Made by a program: the position numbers and the translations under genes | Part shown: positions 47,449 to 57,657 of the stretch, piece by piece | How positions within the stretch are numbered: the stretch's first letter is position 1 | Layout of the letters: each line of letters starts with the position of its first letter | Notes under the pieces: model-generated | Database searches by the model: none | Told to the model about the DNA's origin: nothing | What the model saw: the letters and a program-made list of their open reading frames with translations, nothing else | Origin: Paracoccaceae bacterium | Lineage (GTDB): Bacteria > Pseudomonadota > Alphaproteobacteria > Rhodobacterales > Rhodobacteraceae | Assembly: GCA_020622085.1 (NCBI GenBank) | Contig: JAHRYM010000002.1 | Location: 1,078,895-1,142,894 of the forward strand | DNA length: 64,000 nucleotides | Reading direction: 5' to 3'

Positions 47449-47777
47449 CGGTGTTCTGCCTTCGCCCTTTGGCCAGACCGGGGCCGGGTCAAAGTCCTGA
47501 CGGCACCGGATTCATCAAGGCCCGCAGACTGCACCATGTGGCAAGGCCGGGCAAGTTCTCCGGCGCCATCAGCCGGGTGCGTATTCTTCGCGCTCAGGGG
47601 GCAGGTCGGGCGTTGAACGGGCTTGCTGCCTTCTGCGGGGCTGTCCCTGGCCGTCCCCGGAACCACGTCAATCGACCGAACCGGACCTACACCGCCGGGC
47701 CGGCCTTCCGCAGTCTGAAACGGACGGGACTCTCTTCCTTTTTGGAGGGGCCTGCGGATGCGTGGGAGGAACGGGAG
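47449..47777 (+). promoter_or_regulatory. Leader region upstream of hao
   Basis: 329 bases between divergent genes. It must hold the hao promoter and contains the 14-bp motif listed next, roughly 90 bases before the hao ATG. The last part, TCTTCCTTTTTGGAGGGG...GGGAGGAACGGGAG, supplies the ribosome-binding site. I saw no FNR/NNR-type (TTGAT-N4-ATCAA) palindrome. The open frame running through it in frame with hao carries no signal-like or conserved sequence. Confidence 0.55.
47676..47689 (+). promoter_or_regulatory. Candidate operator, copy 1 (CCGAACCGGACCTA)
   Basis: Exactly the same 14 bases occur at 50443-50456 upstream of the mocR-type regulator gene. An imperfect further half-site (AACGGAC) is at 47719-47725. 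The likely ligand protein is the regulator encoded in the cluster; this is inference from position and identity. Confidence 0.6.
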
Positions 47778-49382
47778 ATGATTTGGACCTCAAGATGGCC
47801 GGGCTGGAGGGGCATTGTCGTCGTGACGGCCGCGGTTTTCGTCCTGGACAGCGAACCCGTCCGGGCAGAAGGCTGGCCCACGGTGCCGGACGAACTGTTC
47901 ACCGCGCTGGGGCTGACGCGCGATGTGTCGGCCAGCGACCTTTATGCGGCGGTCGCGGCGCGCTACTACGACCAGGCCAAGGGTTATGGCGAGGGCAAGT
48001 TCTCCGAGATGTGGGAACCGACCGCTCTGGCACGCTACCTGGACCCCGGCCTCTATCAGGGCCGCGAGGCTCTGGATTTCGAGGTCACAAGCGCGGATTG
48101 CGCCACCTGCCATGAAACCGTGACCCCCGGCTGGGTCCATGCCGCGAACCGCAGCGTGCACGCCGACCTTCAGGCCCTGCGCGCCCTGCCGGCGGATGAT
48201 CCCCGGGCCTACAAAGTCGAGCATCTGGACGAGGTCGAGGCCAACCTGCGCACCATGGGCAAGCTGGCCGAGGGCGAGGTTCTGGCCGAGGTCGCCTGCG
48301 CCGATTGCCACATGGGCGTCGGCGTGAAGGCCGGAAACCACAAGACCGACCTGCGCCTGCCCGACGGCGCGGCCTGTGGCCAGTGCCACGTCCGCCAGTT
48401 CTCGGAGCGCGAGTCCGAGCGCGACACCCTGACCTGGCCGCAGGACCAATGGCCCGCCGGACGGCCGAGCCACGCCCTGTCGATGATCGCCAACTACGAG
48501 ACCGCGATCTGGGCCGGGATGGCCGAACGCGAGGTGGCCGAGGGCTGCACCATGTGCCACACCACCCAGACCAGCTGCAACCAGTGCCACACCCGGCACG
48601 AATTCTCGGCCGCGCAGGCGCGCAAGCCCGAGATGTGCGCCAACTGCCACAACGGCGTCGATCACAACGAGTTCGAGAACTACATGATGTCGCGCCACGG
48701 CCTGATCTACCAGACCAACGGCGACAACTGGAACTGGGAGGCGCCGCTGTCCGAAGCCTTCGCCTCGGCCGGCTACAACGCGCCGACCTGCCAGACCTGC
48801 CACATGAGCGTGAATGGCGAATACAGCCACAACCTTGTGCAGAAGGTGCGCTGGGGCTTCAACCCGATGCCCTCGATCGCCGAGAACCTGGATCATCCCT
48901 GGTTCCAGGCCCGCAAGGAGCTTTGGGTCGCCACCTGCACCCAGTGCCACGCGCCCAGCTTCGCCACCAGCTATCTCGACATGATGGACCAGGGCACGAT
49001 CCAGGGCATCGGGCTGGTGCAAGAGGCCGATGCGGTGGTCAAGAAGCTCTACGAGGACGGGCTGCTGGTCGGTCAGGCCGACAACCGCCCGGCCCCGCCG
49101 GCCCCGGATGCCGACACGCATGGCGGCTTCTTCGGGCTGTTCTGGACCAAGGGCAACAACCCCAGCGCGGTCGAGCATGAGTATGCCCAGATGTGGGAGC
49201 AGGAGATCATGCGCCACTTCAAGGGCCTGGCGCATGTCAACCCCGGCGGCTTCACCTACAGCTACGGTTGGTCGGAGCTGATCGGCTCGCTGGCACGGAT
49301 CCGCGACGAGGATACCCGCCTGCGCGAAGGCGCGGCCCTGGAGAAGCGCATCGAGGCGCTGGAGGCGGCGGGCGGCGACTGA
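47778..49382 (+). CDS. hao: Octaheme hydroxylamine oxidoreductase-family cytochrome c
   Basis: 534 residues from ATG 47778 with a signal peptide (MIWTSRWPGWRGIVVVTAAVFVLDSEPVRA); the track start is 109 codons too early. Eight CxxCH heme motifs begin at Cys108, 174, 200, 257, 267, 287, 338 and 387. None is CxxCK, which separates it from octaheme nitrite and tetrathionate reductases. The C-terminal part GLAHVNPGGFTYSYGWSELI keeps Tyr494/Tyr496, candidates for the Tyr that cross-links to the P460 heme in hydroxylamine-oxidising HAO. Expected reaction: hydroxylamine oxidation to NO or nitrite in the periplasm, probably as a trimer. It is followed by haoB-like and a ccm/ALAS operon. Confidence 0.93.
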   Translation: MIWTSRWPGWRGIVVVTAAVFVLDSEPVRAEGWPTVPDELFTALGLTRDVSASDLYAAVAARYYDQAKGYGEGKFSEMWEPTALARYLDPGLYQGREALDFEVTSADCATCHETVTPGWVHAANRSVHADLQALRALPADDPRAYKVEHLDEVEANLRTMGKLAEGEVLAEVACADCHMGVGVKAGNHKTDLRLPDGAACGQCHVRQFSERESERDTLTWPQDQWPAGRPSHALSMIANYETAIWAGMAEREVAEGCTMCHTTQTSCNQCHTRHEFSAAQARKPEMCANCHNGVDHNEFENYMMSRHGLIYQTNGDNWNWEAPLSEAFASAGYNAPTCQTCHMSVNGEYSHNLVQKVRWGFNPMPSIAENLDHPWFQARKELWVATCTQCHAPSFATSYLDMMDQGTIQGIGLVQEADAVVKKLYEDGLLVGQADNRPAPPAPDADTHGGFFGLFWTKGNNPSAVEHEYAQMWEQEIMRHFKGLAHVNPGGFTYSYGWSELIGSLARIRDEDTRLREGAALEKRIEALEAAGGD

Positions 49383-49406
49383 GACCGCCCGGCGCAAGCG
49401 AAAGAC

Positions 49407-49436
49407 CAGGCCCGCCGCCCTGTGGTGGCGGGCCTG
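49407..49436 (+). promoter_or_regulatory. Hairpin between hao and haoB-like gene
   Basis: CAGGCCCGCC-loop-GGCGGGCCTG is a perfect 10-bp stem 24 bases after the hao stop, without a T-run. It may stabilise the hao message or lower readthrough into haoB, giving more cytochrome than partner protein. Confidence 0.7.
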
Positions 49437-49458
49437 CCACAACAGGGGGGCAGGTGCG

Positions 49459-50433
49459 ATGATCGGGATGACGGTGGGAAGACTGGGCCTCGGGCTGGTT
49501 CTGGCATTAGGTCTTGCAGGGGCGGGACTGGCGCAGACCCATGACTACCTTGCCAGCGATGCCGCGCCCTCCGAAGCGGCGGCCGGGCTGGCCGGGCGGC
49601 TGGGGGGCACGGCGACGGTGCTGGACCTGGTGGCCGAGGGCGAGGCGCGGCCGCTGGCGGAGGTCGAGGTCGCGACCCTGCCCGATGGCACGACACGGCT
49701 TCTGGGCTGGGCCGCGCTGACCCCGGCCCCGATCCTGCGCCGCGACATCCGCGCCGACGAGGATCTGGCGCTGGTCGAGGCGCTGCAGAAATACCTGCCG
49801 CCCGACAGCACGATCCTGGCCTTCCCCGGCCTGTCGCGGCGGCTGGCCCCGCTGGTCGCGGCGCGCTTCCCGCTGGCCAAGGAGGCCGAGCCGCTGGTCA
49901 TGCCGCAGCCCTGGGCGGGGCAGGGGGACGCCGTGGCCACCATCGAGACGGCGCAATGGGGCGGGCCTGCCGCCGAAAGCCTGCCGCAGGGTCCGGCACC
50001 CGACCTGACCGCTGGGCTGGTCGATGCGCTGCTCAGCGAGGACCGGACCGGCGCGGCGCGGCTGAAGATCATGGCGGGCGAGGGTTCGGCCTATGTGCTG
50101 GTCCATATCGACGACGCCTACCAGTTGGGCCTGCTGCGCCCCGGCCGCATGGCGATGACGCAACGGCTGTTCACGGCCAAGGGCTTCTCGCATGATCTCG
50201 CGCGCGAGGCCCGGCGCTGGGGGCAGGAGAACGACAAGGTCGCCTGGGCCGTCTCGCGCGATGCCGAGGGTCGGCTGCGCGGGCATTATCTGGCCGAGGC
50301 CACCGAGACGACGACGCTGGTCGCCCGGCTCCTGCCCTTCAACACCAGCGAGATCGACGCGGTGCCGGGCCTTCGCCTTGTCTGGCAGCACGAGGGTTAC
50401 TGGCTTTACCGGATCGACGGCATCCGAAGCTGA
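49459..50433 (+). CDS. haoB: HaoB-like exported protein
   Basis: 324 residues starting MIGMTVGRLGLGLVLALGLAGAGLAQ, a signal peptide or membrane anchor. The rest is extracytoplasmic, rich in Ala/Leu/Arg, with no Cys and therefore no heme motif. It shows a pattern LLGWAALTPAPILRRDIRADEDLALVEALQKYLPPDSTILAFPG that suggests an alpha/beta fold. In ammonia oxidisers and methanotrophs haoB directly follows haoA, and position is the main basis for this name. The family's function is unknown; a role in HAO maturation or membrane docking is plausible. Confidence 0.6.
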   Translation: MIGMTVGRLGLGLVLALGLAGAGLAQTHDYLASDAAPSEAAAGLAGRLGGTATVLDLVAEGEARPLAEVEVATLPDGTTRLLGWAALTPAPILRRDIRADEDLALVEALQKYLPPDSTILAFPGLSRRLAPLVAARFPLAKEAEPLVMPQPWAGQGDAVATIETAQWGGPAAESLPQGPAPDLTAGLVDALLSEDRTGAARLKIMAGEGSAYVLVHIDDAYQLGLLRPGRMAMTQRLFTAKGFSHDLAREARRWGQENDKVAWAVSRDAEGRLRGHYLAEATETTTLVARLLPFNTSEIDAVPGLRLVWQHEGYWLYRIDGIRS

Positions 50434-50477
50434 CCCACTTCCCCGAACCGGACCTATAATAATTCCACATACCGGAC
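50431..50477 (+). promoter_or_regulatory. Regulator-gene promoter with operator copy 2 and direct repeat
   Basis: CCGAACCGGACCTA (50443-50456) repeats the hao-upstream motif exactly and runs into a consensus -10, TATAAT at 50455-50460. CTGACC at about 50430-50435 is a weak -35. A second ACCGGAC lies at 50471-50477, 24 bases after the first, so two direct half-sites flank the -10. MocR-type regulators are known to bind direct repeats, so autoregulation is likely. Confidence 0.65.
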
Positions 50478-50526
50478 TCATCATTTGCCGGATCCGGGTT
50501 AGGATCATGGGGCCGGGGGGAAGCCC

Positions 50527-52011
50527 ATGCCGCTTGCACTTGTCATCGACGGGAATGACGGGCGAACGCTTCAGGATCAGGTCTTCGACCAGGTCCGCGC
50601 CCTGATCCTGTCGTCACGGCTGAAGTCGGGGTATCCGATGCCCGGCTCGCGCCTCTTGGCCGAGCATCTGGGCGTGTCGCGCAACACGGTGACGATCGCC
50701 TATGAAAAGCTGCTCAGCGAGGGCTATCTGGAGATCCGGCCCAATGTCGGCACTTTCGTGGCCCGCAACCTGCCCGACCCGGTGCCGGGGCAGCAGGCGG
50801 CGGCCCCGCTTGCACTGGTGCATGACACCGTGCCAAGGGCGGACACCCTGCTGGAGCGGATCGCGGCATCGGTCTTTCCGACCCAGGCCGTCGAACATCC
50901 GGCCGAAGGCAAGCTCAGGGTCGATTTCTGGCCCGGCCGGGTGAACCAGCGCAGCTTTCCCCTGACCGAATGGCGCCGCATCGTCGACGGCAAGCTGCGC
51001 CACGGGCTGCACAACCAGATCCGCTACGGCAATCCGCAGGGCGACGAGAAACTGCGCCGCGCCATCGCCGACCATCTGGGACCGGCGCGGGGCGTGGCCT
51101 GCGCGCCGGATGATGTCGTGATCGTCGGCGGCTCGCAGGACGGGCTGTCGCTGATCGCCCGGGCCATCGGCAATGAGGGCCGCGCCTTCCTGCACGAGAA
51201 CCCCTGCTATCAGGGCGCGCGCTTCCTGTTCGGCCATCTGGGCTTCCCCTGCCACCCGGTCCCGGTGGACCGCGACGGGCTGGTGGTCGAGGCCCTGCCC
51301 GAAATCCGCAACGCGGTGCTGTATGTCACGCCCTCGCATCAGTTTCCGACCGGCGTCACGCTCAGCCTGCCGCGTCGGCTGCGGCTTCTGGAATGGGCAT
51401 CGCGGACCGACAGCCTGATCATCGAGGACGATTACGACGGCGATTTCCGCTATGAGGGCGGGCCGCTGACCGCCTTGCGCGGGCTGGATCGGGCCGGGCG
51501 GGTGCTTTACCTTGGCACCTTTTCCAAGTCGATGGGCCCGGGGTTGCGGCTGGGCTTCATCGTCGGCTCGGACCGCAGCGCGCCGGCGCTGGCGCGCTGG
51601 AAGAAGCTGATGTCGAACGGCACGCCCTGGATCATCCAGGCGGCGATGGCCGAGTTTCTGGATTCGGGCGCCTTCCAGCGCCACTTGCGCCGCATCCGCG
51701 CCATGTATCGCCAGCGCCGTGACGTGCTCATCGACGCCATCGGCCAGCATTTCCCCGGCTCTGAAATCCTCGGGCGGCGCGGCGGGATGCATCTGGCCTG
51801 GCGGCTGCCCGAGACCGGCTGTGCGCGGCGGTTGCAGCAACTGGCCCTGACGCAGGGCATCGGGATCTACACGGTCGAGGATGGCGGTGCCTGCCTCAGT
51901 GCGCATGGCGACCGCCACGGCGATCTTCTGATGATGGGCTATGCGGCGACCGAGGAAGACGTGATCGCGCGGGCGATCGGGATCATGGCCCGGCTGGATG
52001 GGAGGGGATGA
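50527..52011 (+). CDS. MocR-type PLP-dependent transcriptional regulator
   Basis: 494 residues. The N-terminal GntR winged helix spans about 10-80 (LQDQVFDQVRALILSSRLKSGYPMPGSRLLAEHLGVSRNTV). The C-terminal fold-type I aminotransferase domain has EDDYDGDFRYE and the PLP lysine Lys334 in YLGTFSKSMGPGLRLGF. Such proteins use PLP to sense an amine-containing ligand rather than to catalyse. The gene is followed after one base by ccmF, so it is probably the first gene of the maturation operon and the regulator of the cluster. The ligand is unknown. Confidence 0.93.
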   Translation: MPLALVIDGNDGRTLQDQVFDQVRALILSSRLKSGYPMPGSRLLAEHLGVSRNTVTIAYEKLLSEGYLEIRPNVGTFVARNLPDPVPGQQAAAPLALVHDTVPRADTLLERIAASVFPTQAVEHPAEGKLRVDFWPGRVNQRSFPLTEWRRIVDGKLRHGLHNQIRYGNPQGDEKLRRAIADHLGPARGVACAPDDVVIVGGSQDGLSLIARAIGNEGRAFLHENPCYQGARFLFGHLGFPCHPVPVDRDGLVVEALPEIRNAVLYVTPSHQFPTGVTLSLPRRLRLLEWASRTDSLIIEDDYDGDFRYEGGPLTALRGLDRAGRVLYLGTFSKSMGPGLRLGFIVGSDRSAPALARWKKLMSNGTPWIIQAAMAEFLDSGAFQRHLRRIRAMYRQRRDVLIDAIGQHFPGSEILGRRGGMHLAWRLPETGCARRLQQLALTQGIGIYTVEDGGACLSAHGDRHGDLLMMGYAATEEDVIARAIGIMARLDGRG

Positions 52012-52012
52012 G

Positions 52013-54007
52013 GTGGACTTTCCGCTGATACGACTGGGCGGCCTTGCCATCGCCACGGCGCTGGCACTCAGCCTTGCGGCCGCAGGGCTGGCGCTGGCCT
52101 CGCGGCAAGGCCGCGACGCGGCGCGACTGGTCGCCGCGCGCAATGCGGTGCTGGCCGTCGCGGCGCTTCTCAGCTTCGGGATGGCGATCCTGATCCATGC
52201 CTTCGTCATCTCGGACTTCTCGGTGGCCTATGTCGCCCAGAACTCGAACCTTTCGCTGCCGGTGCTTTACAAGATCACCGCGACCTGGGGCGCGCATGAG
52301 GGCTCGCTTCTGCTCTGGGCCTGGTATCTGGGGGTGCTGTCGGCGGCGGCGGTGCTGATCCACTGGCGCGACCATCCGCTGTCGATGCCCTGGATCATCG
52401 CCACGCTGGCGCTGGTGCAGGCCGGGTTTCTGGCGCTGATCGTGTTCCTGTCCAACCCCTTCGCCACCCTGGCCCCGCTGCCGCCCGACGGCCGCGACCT
52501 GAACCCGCTGTTGCAGGATCCCGGCCTCGCCTTCCATCCGCCGGTGCTTTACCTCGGCTATGTCGGCTTTGCCGTGCCCTTCGCCTTTGCCGTGGCGGCG
52601 ATGATGCGGGCGCATGTCGGCACCGAATGGGTCAGCGCCGTGCGCCGCTGGGTGCTGTTCGCCTGGACGGCCCTGACCTCGGGCATCATCTTCGGCGGCT
52701 ACTGGGCCTATTACGAACTGGGCTGGGGCGGCTACTGGGCCTGGGATCCGGTCGAGAATGCCTCGCTGATGCCCTGGCTTGCCGGCACGGCGCTGATGCA
52801 TTCGATGATGGCGCAGGACCGGCGGCACATGTTCCGGCTGTGGAATGCCTTTCTGGTGGTGGCGACCTTCCTGCTGACGCTCTTGGGCACTTTCCTCGTG
52901 CGCTCGGGGGTGCTGACCTCGGTCCATGCCTTTGCCACCGATCCCGCACGGGGCGGCTATATCCTGGCCTTCATGGTGGTGGCGATGGGGGCGGGCTTCG
53001 GCCTCTTGATCTGGCGGGCGGAAAGCCTGGAATCCGACGCCGGGGTGGAAAGCCCGCTCTCGCGCGAGGCGGGGCTTCTGGCCAACAACGTGCTTCTGAT
53101 GATCGCGGCACTGATCGTGGTGATCGGCACCCTGTTCCCGCTGGCGGTCGAGCTTGCGACCGGGGACAAGATCTCGGTCGGGGCGCCCTATTTCAACCAT
53201 GTGATGGTGCCCTTGATGCTGGGGGTGATGGTGCTGATGGCGCTGGGGCCCTCGGTGCCGTGGCGGGCGATGCCGGGCGACAGGTTCACCCGGATCATGC
53301 GGCTGCCGGGCGCGGCGGCGCTGGTCGCGCTGGCGGCCGGGCTGGCGATGGGCGCGCGGGATGCGACGACCCTGGCGGCCATGACCATCATCGCCTTCGC
53401 AGCGACGGCAACCCTTGCCGACATCGGCCGCGCCATTGCCGCCCGCGCGCGGGTCGGCGGCACCGGCTGGGGCCGGGCGGCGCTGGCCGCGACCTTGCAG
53501 GGCCGCCGCCGGATGGGCGGGCTGATCGTTCATTTCGGCATGGTGCTGATCGGCGCGGGGATGATCGGCTCGGGCCTGTTTCAGCAGGCGCAGACCGTCC
53601 ACCTGCGCCCCGGCGAGGCGGCGGCGATCCACGGCTACGAGGTCCGGCTTGACGGGGTCGAGGACACGACCGGCCCGAACTGGCAAGGCAAGCTCGCGCG
53701 GTTCTCGATCCTGCGCGACGGGGCGGTGGTGGATACGATGCTGCCGGAACAAAGGTTCTACGAATTGCGCGGCATGGCCACGACCGAGACCGCGATCCGC
53801 TCGGAACTGGCGGGCGATCTCTACATCTTCTTCGGCGATGAGGACGCGGGCGCGGTGGTGGCGCAGATCTACTGGAACCCGCTGATCGGGCTGGTCTGGC
53901 TGGGCTGGATGGTGGTGCTGGCCGGTTCCTTCCTGTCGCTGACCGAAGCGGGGGCGCTGCGTCGCCGCGTGCCCCGCGCACAACCCAGCGAGGTGGCCGC
54001 CGAATGA
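52013..54007 (+). CDS. ccmF: Cytochrome c heme lyase subunit CcmF
   Basis: 664 residues from GTG 52013 with GGAGGGG upstream (ATG 51998 is the track alternative and would overlap the regulator by 14 bases). It is a polytopic membrane protein. The tryptophan-rich WWD heme-handling motif is visible as WGGYWAWDPVENASLMPW at about 238-255, and conserved His positions occur near TWGAHEGS. CcmF with CcmH and CcmI attaches heme to apocytochrome c. The stop overlaps the ccmG start (ATGA). Confidence 0.96.
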   Translation: MDFPLIRLGGLAIATALALSLAAAGLALASRQGRDAARLVAARNAVLAVAALLSFGMAILIHAFVISDFSVAYVAQNSNLSLPVLYKITATWGAHEGSLLLWAWYLGVLSAAAVLIHWRDHPLSMPWIIATLALVQAGFLALIVFLSNPFATLAPLPPDGRDLNPLLQDPGLAFHPPVLYLGYVGFAVPFAFAVAAMMRAHVGTEWVSAVRRWVLFAWTALTSGIIFGGYWAYYELGWGGYWAWDPVENASLMPWLAGTALMHSMMAQDRRHMFRLWNAFLVVATFLLTLLGTFLVRSGVLTSVHAFATDPARGGYILAFMVVAMGAGFGLLIWRAESLESDAGVESPLSREAGLLANNVLLMIAALIVVIGTLFPLAVELATGDKISVGAPYFNHVMVPLMLGVMVLMALGPSVPWRAMPGDRFTRIMRLPGAAALVALAAGLAMGARDATTLAAMTIIAFAATATLADIGRAIAARARVGGTGWGRAALAATLQGRRRMGGLIVHFGMVLIGAGMIGSGLFQQAQTVHLRPGEAAAIHGYEVRLDGVEDTTGPNWQGKLARFSILRDGAVVDTMLPEQRFYELRGMATTETAIRSELAGDLYIFFGDEDAGAVVAQIYWNPLIGLVWLGWMVVLAGSFLSLTEAGALRRRVPRAQPSEVAAE

Positions 54008-54567
54008 TGCAGGATCATGTGACACGCTCGCGGCGCATCCGGCCGTGGAAACTGGCGCTGGTGGGGGCGATGGGGCTGACGATGGCGATGCTGGCGCTGG
54101 GGCTGACGCGGGATGCCTCGGTCGTCCCCTCGGCGCTGGTCGGCCGGGCGATGCCCGCCTTCGACCTGCCGCTGCTCGAAGGCGAGGGGTGGCTTGCCTC
54201 GGCCCAGGTCGAGGGGCGGCCGGTGGTGCTGAACTTCTGGGCGTCATGGTGCGGGACGTGCCGCGAGGAGCATCCCGAACTGGTCCGCCTCGGCCTGCGG
54301 GCACAGGCGAAGGGCGAATTTGCCATCGCCGGAATCAACTATCGCGACGATCCCGAACGGGCGCTGCACTTTTTGCGGCGCGAGGGGCAGTTTCCCTATG
54401 CCTCGGCGATGGATCCGCGCGGGCGGATGGGTATCGACTATGGCGTCTACGGCATGCCCGAGACCTTCTTCATCGACGCCTCGGGCGTGGTGCGCGGCCG
54501 TCATCCCGGCCCGCTGACCCCCGCCGTGCTGGCCCGGATGCTGCCCCTGATCGGAGTCGAGCCATGA
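54004..54567 (+). CDS. ccmG: Thiol:disulfide interchange protein CcmG (DsbE)
   Basis: 187 residues. One membrane anchor (WKLALVGAMGLTMAMLALGL, about 15-34) precedes a periplasmic thioredoxin fold with NFWASWCGTCREEHPEL (Cys83 and Cys86). The cis-Pro region GMPETFFIDASG follows. CcmG keeps the CxxCH cysteines of the apocytochrome reduced before heme ligation. The four-base overlaps on both sides indicate translational coupling. Confidence 0.95.
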   Translation: MMQDHVTRSRRIRPWKLALVGAMGLTMAMLALGLTRDASVVPSALVGRAMPAFDLPLLEGEGWLASAQVEGRPVVLNFWASWCGTCREEHPELVRLGLRAQAKGEFAIAGINYRDDPERALHFLRREGQFPYASAMDPRGRMGIDYGVYGMPETFFIDASGVVRGRHPGPLTPAVLARMLPLIGVEP

Positions 54568-55016
54568 TCCGCGCGCTGATCCTGGGCCTTGCCCTTGCCC
54601 TTGCCCTGCCGCTTGCCGCCCCCGCCCAGACCGCGACCGTGGCCGAGGCCCCCGACGAGCCGCGCATCCGCGCGCTGGCGCAGACGCTGCGCTGCCCGGT
54701 CTGCCAAAGCGAGTCGATCCTGGAAAGCCGCTCCTCGACCGCCTACGAGATGATGGTGATCCTGCGCGAGATGGTGGCCGAAGGCCGCGGCGATGCCGAG
54801 ATCGTCGAATTCTTCCGCAGCCGCTATGGCAATTACGTCATGCTGGCCCCGCCGCGAAACGGGCCGGGCGGGGTGATCTGGCTGCTGGCACCGACCCTGC
54901 TGGCCGGCGGGGGCGGGTTCTTCCTCTGGCGTCTGCGCCAGCGCGGGGCCGTGGTGGAGGTCCCGGCGCAGGCTCCGACCCTCGATGCCGAGCAGCTGCG
55001 GGGGACCGGGCTATGA
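54564..55016 (+). CDS. ccmH: Cytochrome c-type biogenesis protein CcmH
   Basis: 150 residues from ATG 54564 (MIRALILGLALALALPLAAPAQT, signal peptide). The redox motif LRCPVCQSESILES gives Cys44 and Cys47. A C-terminal membrane helix (VIWLLAPTLLAGGGGFFLWRL) follows the three-helix domain. CcmH resolves the mixed disulfide on the apocytochrome with CcmG. This is the short form equal to the N-terminal part of E. coli CcmH, and CcmI is encoded separately next. Confidence 0.95.
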   Translation: MIRALILGLALALALPLAAPAQTATVAEAPDEPRIRALAQTLRCPVCQSESILESRSSTAYEMMVILREMVAEGRGDAEIVEFFRSRYGNYVMLAPPRNGPGGVIWLLAPTLLAGGGGFFLWRLRQRGAVVEVPAQAPTLDAEQLRGTGL

Positions 55017-55957
55017 CCGTGCTTGTCATTGCGCTGGCGATGCTGGCCGCCGCCCTTGCCGCGCTGGCCATTCCGCTGTTCGGCCCGGCCCCCGCGCCGC
55101 TGGGTCACGGGCTGGAGGATGCAGCCCCGGTTGCCCGCTGGGAGGGCGAGCGCGCCCGGCTGGTCGCCGCGATGCGCGACAACGATCTGGCGCTGGCCGA
55201 GGGGCGGCTGGACGGCACGGTGCATCAATCGACGGCCAGCCGGCTGGCGGCCGAGGCCGAGCGCGTGCTGTCACGCCTGCGCGCCGCGCGCGACCAGTTC
55301 CAGGCCCCGGCACCGCTGGCCGAGATCGCGCCCCGCGCGGCCCTGTCGCATCTGGCGGTGATGGGCCTTGTGCTGGTGGTCGCTGTGCTTTCGGCGCAGG
55401 CTGCGGGGTGGCAGGACATCAACCTTGTCGGCAGCCCGCATGCCGACGGCTCGATCCCGCTGGACGGCACCGCCCCGCCGATGGCCACGGGCGAAGACAT
55501 GCCCGACATTGGCGCCATGGTCGCCGGGCTGGAGGCGCGGGTGGCCGAAGGCGATGCCACGGCGGAGGAGATCAAGATGCTCCTGCGCAGCTATGACACG
55601 CTGGGGCGGCTGGCCGATGCCCGCCCGGTGCTGCAAGGCGCGCTGGCCCGCTTCCCCGCGGATCCCGAGTTCCGGCTGGGCTGGCTGCGGCTGGTGGTCA
55701 GCCTGCCAGAGCCGGGCGATGCCGCCCGGGCGCTGCCGTTGGCCGAGGGGCTGATCGCCGAGATCCCCGACCTGCTGGAGGCGCGCTGGTATCGCAGCCT
55801 CCTGCTGGTCGGCGCGGCCCGGCGCGACGAAGCTTTGGCCGAGCTGCGCGGCATGGCCCCGCTTCTTCCTGCCGACAGCCCCGCCGGCCGCGCCGTGGCC
55901 GGGCTGATCGCCGATCTGGAAACCCTGCCCGCCCCGCCCGAAGGAGCATCGCCATGA
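55013..55957 (+). CDS. ccmI: Cytochrome c-type biogenesis protein CcmI (CycH)
   Basis: 314 residues. An N-terminal membrane helix ([21 protein letters not shown]) is followed by a cytoplasmic coiled coil ([31 protein letters not shown]), a second helix ([23 protein letters not shown]) and periplasmic TPR-like helices (about 185-300). CcmI chaperones apocytochromes to CcmFH. The coupled stops and starts tie it to ccmH and the downstream hemA. Confidence 0.93.
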
Positions 55958-57210
55958 GGGATGACACCGCCCCGTTTTCCGCCGGTCCCGAGGCCCCCGA
56001 CTATCTGGGCCTGATCGAGGATTACCTCTCCGGGCTGAAGGCCGAGGGGCGCTATCGCACCTTCCAGCTGCACGACCGCCGCAGCGGGGGCTTTCCCCAT
56101 TCGGTGATCCAGACGGCGGACGGTCCGCGAGAAGTGGTGGTCTGGTGCTCGAACGACTATCTCGGCATGGGCCAGCACCCCGCCGTCTGCGCCGCGATGA
56201 AGGCGGCGATCGACAGCCACGGCGCGGGGGCGGGGGGCACGCGCAACATCTCGGGCAATCACGGGCCGGTGGTGGCGCTGGAACGGGAACTGGCGCTGCT
56301 GCATGGCAAGGAGGCGGCGCTGGTCCTGGGCTGCGGCTGGCTGGCCAATCAGGCGGTGCTTTCGGCGCTGGGGCGGCTTTTGCCCGACTGCATCATCCTG
56401 TCCGACGAGATGAACCACGCCAGCATGATCGAGGGCATCCGCGCCGGGCGCTGCGAGAAACAGGTGTTCCGCCACAACGATCTGGCGCATCTGGAGGCGC
56501 TGCTGGCCGCCCAGCCGCCGGGCCGCTGCAAGCTGATCGCAGTCGAAAGCGTCTATTCCATGGACGGCGACCTCGCCCCCCTGGCCGGGATCGTGGCGCT
56601 GGCCGAACGCTATGGCGCGCTCACCTATCTGGACGAGGTCCACGCCGTCGGCATGTATGGCCCGACCGGCGCCGGCATCGCCGAGGCGCAGGGGCTGGCG
56701 CACCGGATCGACATCATCCAGGGCACGCTGGCCAAGGCCTATGGCGTGATCGGCGGCTATGTCGCGGGCAAGGCGGCGGTGGTCGATGCCATCCGTTCCA
56801 GCGGGACCGGCTTCATCTTCACCACGGCGATTCCCCCGGCGGTCGCGGCGGGGGCGCTGGCCTCGGTCCGGCATCTGCGCGGCGACGGGACGCTACGCGC
56901 GGCGCTGGCGGGGCGCGCGGCCCGGCTGCGCGGCCTGCTGGATGCGGCCCGCCTGCCGCATCTGCCGAACCCAAGCCATATCGTGCCGCTGATCGTCGGC
57001 GACGCGGCGCGCTGCCGGGAATTGTCGGACATGCTGCTGGCCGACCATGCGATCTATGTCCAGCCGATCAACTATCCCACCGTCCCGCGCGGGACCGAAC
57101 GGCTGCGCATCACCGCCACACCGCTGCATGACGATGCGATGATGGACACTCTGGTTCAGGCGCTGGTCGGCTGCTGGGAGGCGATGCAACTGCCAAGGTC
57201 GCGGCCATGA
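55954..57210 (+). CDS. hemA: 5-aminolevulinate synthase, divergent form
   Basis: 418 residues. It is a fold-type I PLP enzyme with the ALAS residues intact: Arg35 in EGRYRTF, Asn67 in WCSNDYLGM, Thr96/Asn98 in [29 protein letters not shown] and the PLP lysine Lys261 in [13 protein letters not shown]. It condenses glycine and succinyl-CoA to the first heme precursor. The normally conserved stretch after NISG (GTTLYH in Rhodobacter, from memory) reads GNHGPV here. It overlaps ccmI and ccmE by 4 bases each. A second housekeeping ALAS is expected elsewhere. Confidence 0.88.
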
Positions 57211-57632
57211 GGCGGCTGGCCAAACGCCGCCGGGTGCAGCTTCTGGCGGGCGCTGCCCTGTTCCTTGCCGCCTCGGTCGCGCTGTTCGGCTATGCCTTCC
57301 GCGACGGCATCCAGTATCTCCGCACCCCGACCGAGGTGGCCGCCAATGCCCCCGGCCCGGCCGAGACCTTCCGCATCGGCGGCATGGTCAAGCCCGGCAG
57401 CCTGGCCCGCGCCGGGACCGACATCCGGTTCACCGTCAGCGATGGCACCGCCGAACTGGAGGTCGTCTATTCCGGCATCACCCCCGACCTCTTTGCCGAG
57501 GGCGCGGGCGTGGTCGCCACCGGGCGGCTGGTCGATGGCCGCTTTCAGGCCGAGACCATCCTTGCCAAGCATGACGAGGACTACATTCCGCGCGAGCTGG
57601 CCGACATGGGGCTGGCCGACGGCGAGGGCTGA
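57207..57632 (+). CDS. ccmE: Heme chaperone CcmE
   Basis: 141 residues. One membrane helix ([20 protein letters not shown], about 12-31) anchors a periplasmic beta-barrel. The heme-binding His122 lies in [10 protein letters not shown], the conserved HxxxY motif. CcmE carries heme from CcmC to CcmF. It is the last gene of the run and is convergent with pyrF 25 bases away. Placing ccmE after hemA, rather than beside ccmF, is unusual. Confidence 0.96.
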
Positions 57633-57657
57633 ACCCCGTTCCGGATCATGCCGGGTG

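Follow-up and report, generated by a model that had tools for sequence, protein, structure and literature searches.

The stretch of DNA analysed here, called the window, is 64,000 nucleotides long, and its last position, 64000, is the end of contig C2 (1,142,894 bases). All coordinates are window positions unless another contig or locus is named. The window carries a cluster of nine genes centred on a hydroxylamine oxidoreductase (HAO), which is a central enzyme of hydroxylamine oxidation:

47778..49382, + strand: haoA, octahaem hydroxylamine oxidoreductase (matches Nitrosomonas HAO structures, E ~1e-181; Pfam PF13447)
49459..50433, + strand: haoB (NCBIfam TIGR04392, E 7e-58, 196.7 bits against a cut-off of 200)
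50527..52011, + strand: mocR, regulator with GntR and aminotransferase-like PLP domains (PF00392, PF00155), the proposed binder of the boxes described below
51998..57632, + strand: ccmF, dsbE/ccmG, ccmH, ccmI, hemA (5-aminolevulinate synthase) and ccmE, which follow mocR and serve haem and cytochrome c assembly

Family matches identify ccmF, dsbE, hemA and ccmE, and ccmH and ccmI were named from the order and annotation in Ruegeria pomeroyi DSS-3. The megaplasmid of that strain, whose mocR is SPO_RS20830, and a genome of the same family as the window (G782) carry all nine genes in identical order. In a sample of 395 genomes from the order, the window's own was the only one in which HAO was found. 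A sister species (G395) retains the pyrF flank at 84% identity and is missing the hao cluster (window 47451-57650); the cluster therefore resembles a cassette of about 10 kb that was either gained or lost. A search for AMO gave no match in the genome, but the search control likewise matched nowhere.

The first-pass annotation had pointed to a 14-mer, CCGAACCGGACCTA, as an identical motif upstream of hao and of the regulator gene. It is present as two exact copies, at 47676-47689 and 50443-50456. Pattern searches of the 3.62-Mb genome returned no third exact copy, one copy with one mismatch and 36 with two. The repetition had been considered unlikely by chance, which does not hold for repetition alone: maximal direct pairs 14 bases or longer number 114 in the window, compared with 28 in first-order Markov sequences. 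As repeated 14-mers are so plentiful, exact repetition is weak evidence by itself. The argument does hold between the two promoters, where the chance of a shared 14-mer (regions of 200 and 93 nt) is about 1e-4. The weight of the 14-mers is that both copies lie in the two promoters of one cluster.

For comparison, 85,462 species genomes were scanned, which yielded 45 hao loci. About half of these, some 25 proteobacterial loci, have a linked MocR gene (42-74% identity). They belong to alpha-, beta- and gammaproteobacteria, and the gene is placed downstream, upstream or divergently relative to hao. The hao-linked MocRs form one clade (support 93/86) beside their closest relatives from outside hao clusters, and this clade holds together despite the several gene arrangements.

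De novo EM was run on 22 hao promoters of MocR-linked loci, with the window excluded from training. It yielded a pattern 36 bp long in which the direct boxes YGGNNCCAY and YGGNNCTWY follow each other at 24 bp; its log-likelihood was 283.5 against 94-104 for shuffled promoters, the shuffles being run with fewer restarts. Two direct YGGNNCYAY boxes at exactly this spacing are found in 22 of the 23 MocR-linked hao promoters, and no spacing occurred more than twice in shuffles. When the resulting matrix was applied to both strands of the 64 kb, the best match (18.9 bits) was at 47658, in the hao promoter, where two operator boxes are predicted:

47657..47666, + strand: predicted hao operator box 1, CCGGAACCAC, matching the first box of the 36-bp matrix described above
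47681..47690, + strand: predicted hao operator box 2, CCGGACCTAC, 24 bp past box 1, core of the first 14-mer

The box CCGGAACCAC, which lies 24 bp from the other hao box, had been overlooked in the first pass. The perfect pattern YGGNNCYAY-N15-YGGNNCYAY occurs once in the 3.62-Mb genome, at hao. Scanning with the hao-trained box revealed the direct pair in hao promoters and no preferred inverted box.

A first EM run on 200-bp regions upstream of mocR was discarded, as it captured the conserved coding end of haoB. The mocR promoters were analysed instead by scanning with the hao-trained box, which disclosed direct pairs at 24 bp with an inverted box 25 bp beyond. The corresponding elements in the window are:

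50448..50457, + strand: predicted mocR operator direct box 1, CCGGACCTAT, core of the second 14-mer (matrix site at 50449)
50472..50481, + strand: predicted mocR operator direct box 2, CCGGACTCAT, 24 bp past box 1 (9-bp frame at 50473)
50500..50505, + strand: TAGGAT, probable -10 of the mocR promoter from alignment with relatives
50507..50515, - strand: predicted mocR operator inverted box, CGGCCCCAT on the minus strand, 25 bp past direct box 2

The window array thus reads CGGACCTAT-15-CGGACTCAT-25-ATGGGGCCG. Direct box 2 overlaps the second ACCGGAC that had been noticed earlier, at 50471, 24 bp past that at 50447; the inverted box, which is kept in position in most mocR promoters, had been missed. 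The site at 50449 ranks fifth among matrix matches in the 64 kb, both strands considered. The three-box array of the window was beaten by none of 200 shuffles, and its geometry is shared with relatives: 17 of 24 mocR promoters (the window and 16 other loci) have an array at this level of 0/200. In the spectrum of (+,-) spacings over the mocR promoters, one spacing stands out with 15 occurrences (33, in the 10-mer frame), and none exceeded two in 200 shuffles. The same scan found no clear array at mocR in L031, L033 and L042-L044. The direct-direct-inverted organization at fixed spacing is that of MocR operators, of which the core is TGG or TGT; it is TGG in most relatives and CGG in the window.

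The hexamer TATAAT (50455-50460) had been described as abutting the motif; it actually overlaps the final two bases of the second 14-mer. As a candidate -10 of mocR it was rejected on comparative grounds. In relatives, a TAGTCT, TAATCT or TAGT-like element recurs directly before the inverted box, where the window has TAGGAT. Because this conserved -10-like element adjoins the inverted box, TATAAT is probably not the -10, and TAGGAT would be the likelier candidate.

The core of the first 14-mer is hao box 2, and that of the second is mocR direct box 1. The predicted functional unit is a 9-bp box in a direct/direct(/inverted) array with a 24-bp period, rather than the 14-mer. The motif is found at orthologous hao and mocR promoters of the three proteobacterial classes in a degenerate form, and the exact 14-mer is not conserved. 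The 114 repeated pairs would be compatible with repetition by chance, devoid of function, in a GC-rich window. Against this, a matrix built from other species ranks the hao and mocR promoters first and fifth in 64 kb, the strict two-box pattern is unique in 3.62 Mb and sits at hao, and box spacing and geometry are conserved across relatives. Chance is thus an extremely improbable explanation.

The related loci (680 kb) contain 30 matches of at least 17 bits, 29 of them at hao or mocR promoters. The remaining one is intergenic, beside the ccm-mocR operon of L042; this two-box site (L042:4088-4123), with a lipoprotein-like gene on one side and the ccmI-ccmF-ccmH-mocR operon on the other, is possibly a further operator. 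In G782, which was outside the training set, both operators are present as in the window. Conversely, no box was found at the hao promoter of complete hao loci with long flanks that have no linked MocR (methanotrophs, Methylacidiphilum, Halochromatium, MarineAlpha9). This co-occurrence of MocR and boxes is partly phylogenetic, because loci with and without MocR differ in ancestry. In the truncated loci L025, L027, L038 and L039, the site is present at hao and the MocR gene may lie off the contig. Leave-one-out scores were weak for the hao promoters of L043 and L070.

The proposal that the copies mark MocR sites at the two promoters of the cluster holds in essence, on strong comparative evidence. 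It withstands the refuting condition set for it, a lack of the motif at orthologous promoters: these share the degenerate boxes, and complete loci without MocR have none. The linked MocR very likely binds the boxes, and these are predicted with good confidence to be the operators of the protein encoded at 50527-52011. The boxes could in principle be genuine sites of another regulator, whether a different MocR (TauR, for example) or a protein unrelated to MocR. The TauR box of Rhodobacter capsulatus, CTGGACYTAA, is similar to CCGGACCTAT (PMC5320631), and a second MocR with 35% identity is encoded in the same genome (C1:920461). Yet the boxes stay with the linked MocR gene although its arrangement varies, even to divergent orientation, and loci without the gene lack them. 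They also lie at the promoter of the linked MocR itself, which is usual for MocR autoregulation. A different binder is thus very unlikely.

The regulator combines a GntR winged helix with a class I aminotransferase-like domain (PF00392 and PF00155, both above cut-off), which places it in the MocR subfamily. The PLP-binding lysine is found in a TFSKS motif in the window protein and in all linked orthologues except that of L049 (L049:9019-10470), which has an Asn at this position (TFSNS). The nearest solved structure is 7pq9, a PLP-dependent MocR-type protein, which we take to be PdxR from Bacillus clausii. The protein scores 416 bits with the PdxR model of NCBIfam (NF052282; cut-off 320). Because this score exceeds the cut-off, automatic annotation may call hao-linked MocRs vitamin B6 regulators. 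The arginine that binds substrate carboxylates is absent from the window MocR. The idea that its loss points specifically to a hydroxylamine effector was abandoned, as PdxR-like outgroups also lack the arginine; being common to these outgroups, the loss counts against an amino-acid effector only in general.

These features could mean that the regulator is a true PdxR answering vitamin B6 status, with hao responding to PLP supply only. The PdxR score, the missing arginine, as in PdxR of Bacillus clausii, and the presence of the PLP-dependent 5-aminolevulinate synthase within the operon would all fit. However, no pdx gene is found in the window's cluster or in the annotated Ruegeria cluster, and what the MocR is linked to, across three proteobacterial classes, is hao. 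This explanation is considered rather unlikely.

The preferred reading is that the linked MocR serves the hao cluster itself. By analogy with characterized members of the family, it rather likely activates hao-haoB and autoregulates mocR-ccm-hemA. MocR dimers arranged head to tail occupy direct repeats that are separated by two or three turns, frequently as activators, and mixed direct and inverted arrays belong to MocR regulators that additionally repress their own gene. The commonest operator form is direct-direct-inverted, and apo-PdxR of B. clausii favours direct repeats, PLP shifting the preference to inverted ones (PMC5320631). A MocR dimer on the direct pair would activate hao-haoB. At its own promoter, MocR bound also to the extra inverted box would cover the -10/start region and limit its own synthesis, like other MocRs. 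A single signal, probably acting at the PLP site, would thereby raise the enzyme, the haem supply and cytochrome maturation together. Alternatively, MocR could be purely a repressor, an effector lifting repression at both promoters. In its favour, the inverted box of mocR promoters overlaps the probable -10, and certain MocRs, such as EnuR, do repress (PMC8739950). But hao promoters have no inverted box, and activators such as TauR use direct pairs (PMC5320631). Pure repression thus appears improbable, and activation of hao-haoB is retained.

Hydroxylamine reacts with PLP to form an oxime. This chemistry and the gene linkage make hydroxylamine the leading candidate effector, although tentatively. 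It is conceivable that the conserved MocR clade senses hydroxylamine through an oxime on its bound PLP and co-induces HAO, the haem synthase and cytochrome maturation. In Methylocystis SC2, HaoA, HaoB and a 5-aminolevulinate synthase increase with ammonium load (PMC9600857).

The class of operator is already known for MocR proteins. The direct-direct-inverted operators of Suvorova and Rodionov (2016, PMC5320631) have the same two direct boxes and one inverted box with a TGG core, are likewise spaced near whole helical turns and have a linked regulator gene; the target here differs, being hao/haoB with haem and cytochrome c assembly. Neither hydroxylamine nor hao was found in the main text of that article. 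TauR of R. capsulatus, an activator with similar direct repeats, has another regulon, the taurine genes. Mixed direct and inverted repeats are also a feature of PdxR from Bacillus clausii and related PdxRs; these regulate pdxST, whereas pdx genes are absent from the cluster here. In Alcaligenes faecalis (dirammox), DnfR is likewise the MocR of a hydroxylamine-oxidizing cluster (dnfABC) and is reported to have multiple binding sites; DnfA, however, is a diiron oxygenase and not an octahaem HAO. MpaR of Pseudomonas aeruginosa is a MocR proposed to sense another small nucleophile, cyanide, via a PLP adduct, but it acts on cyanide-inducible genes through a palindromic site (PMC10790758).

In the open-licence literature searched, no description of a hao regulon with conserved operators was found, and no dedicated transcription factor for HAO was named. 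Across three proteobacterial classes, a candidate factor can now be named together with its predicted operators and the haem and cytochrome c assembly genes that it would co-regulate, so that the control of HAO, a nitrogen-cycle enzyme, becomes directly testable. With the same cluster in the cultured R. pomeroyi DSS-3, the switching of HAO outside classical nitrifiers becomes a bench question. The MocR/operator system is also a candidate hydroxylamine biosensor.

Two minor observations concern the relatives. In L063 (9937-11296), the mocR match is divided between two frames and most of the ccm genes are absent, so that the cluster may be decaying or the assembly may contain an error. L116 and L117 hold the nearest MocRs from outside hao clusters, in open frames of about 900 codons with TGGCACCAT-like boxes upstream, the spacing of which apparently differs.
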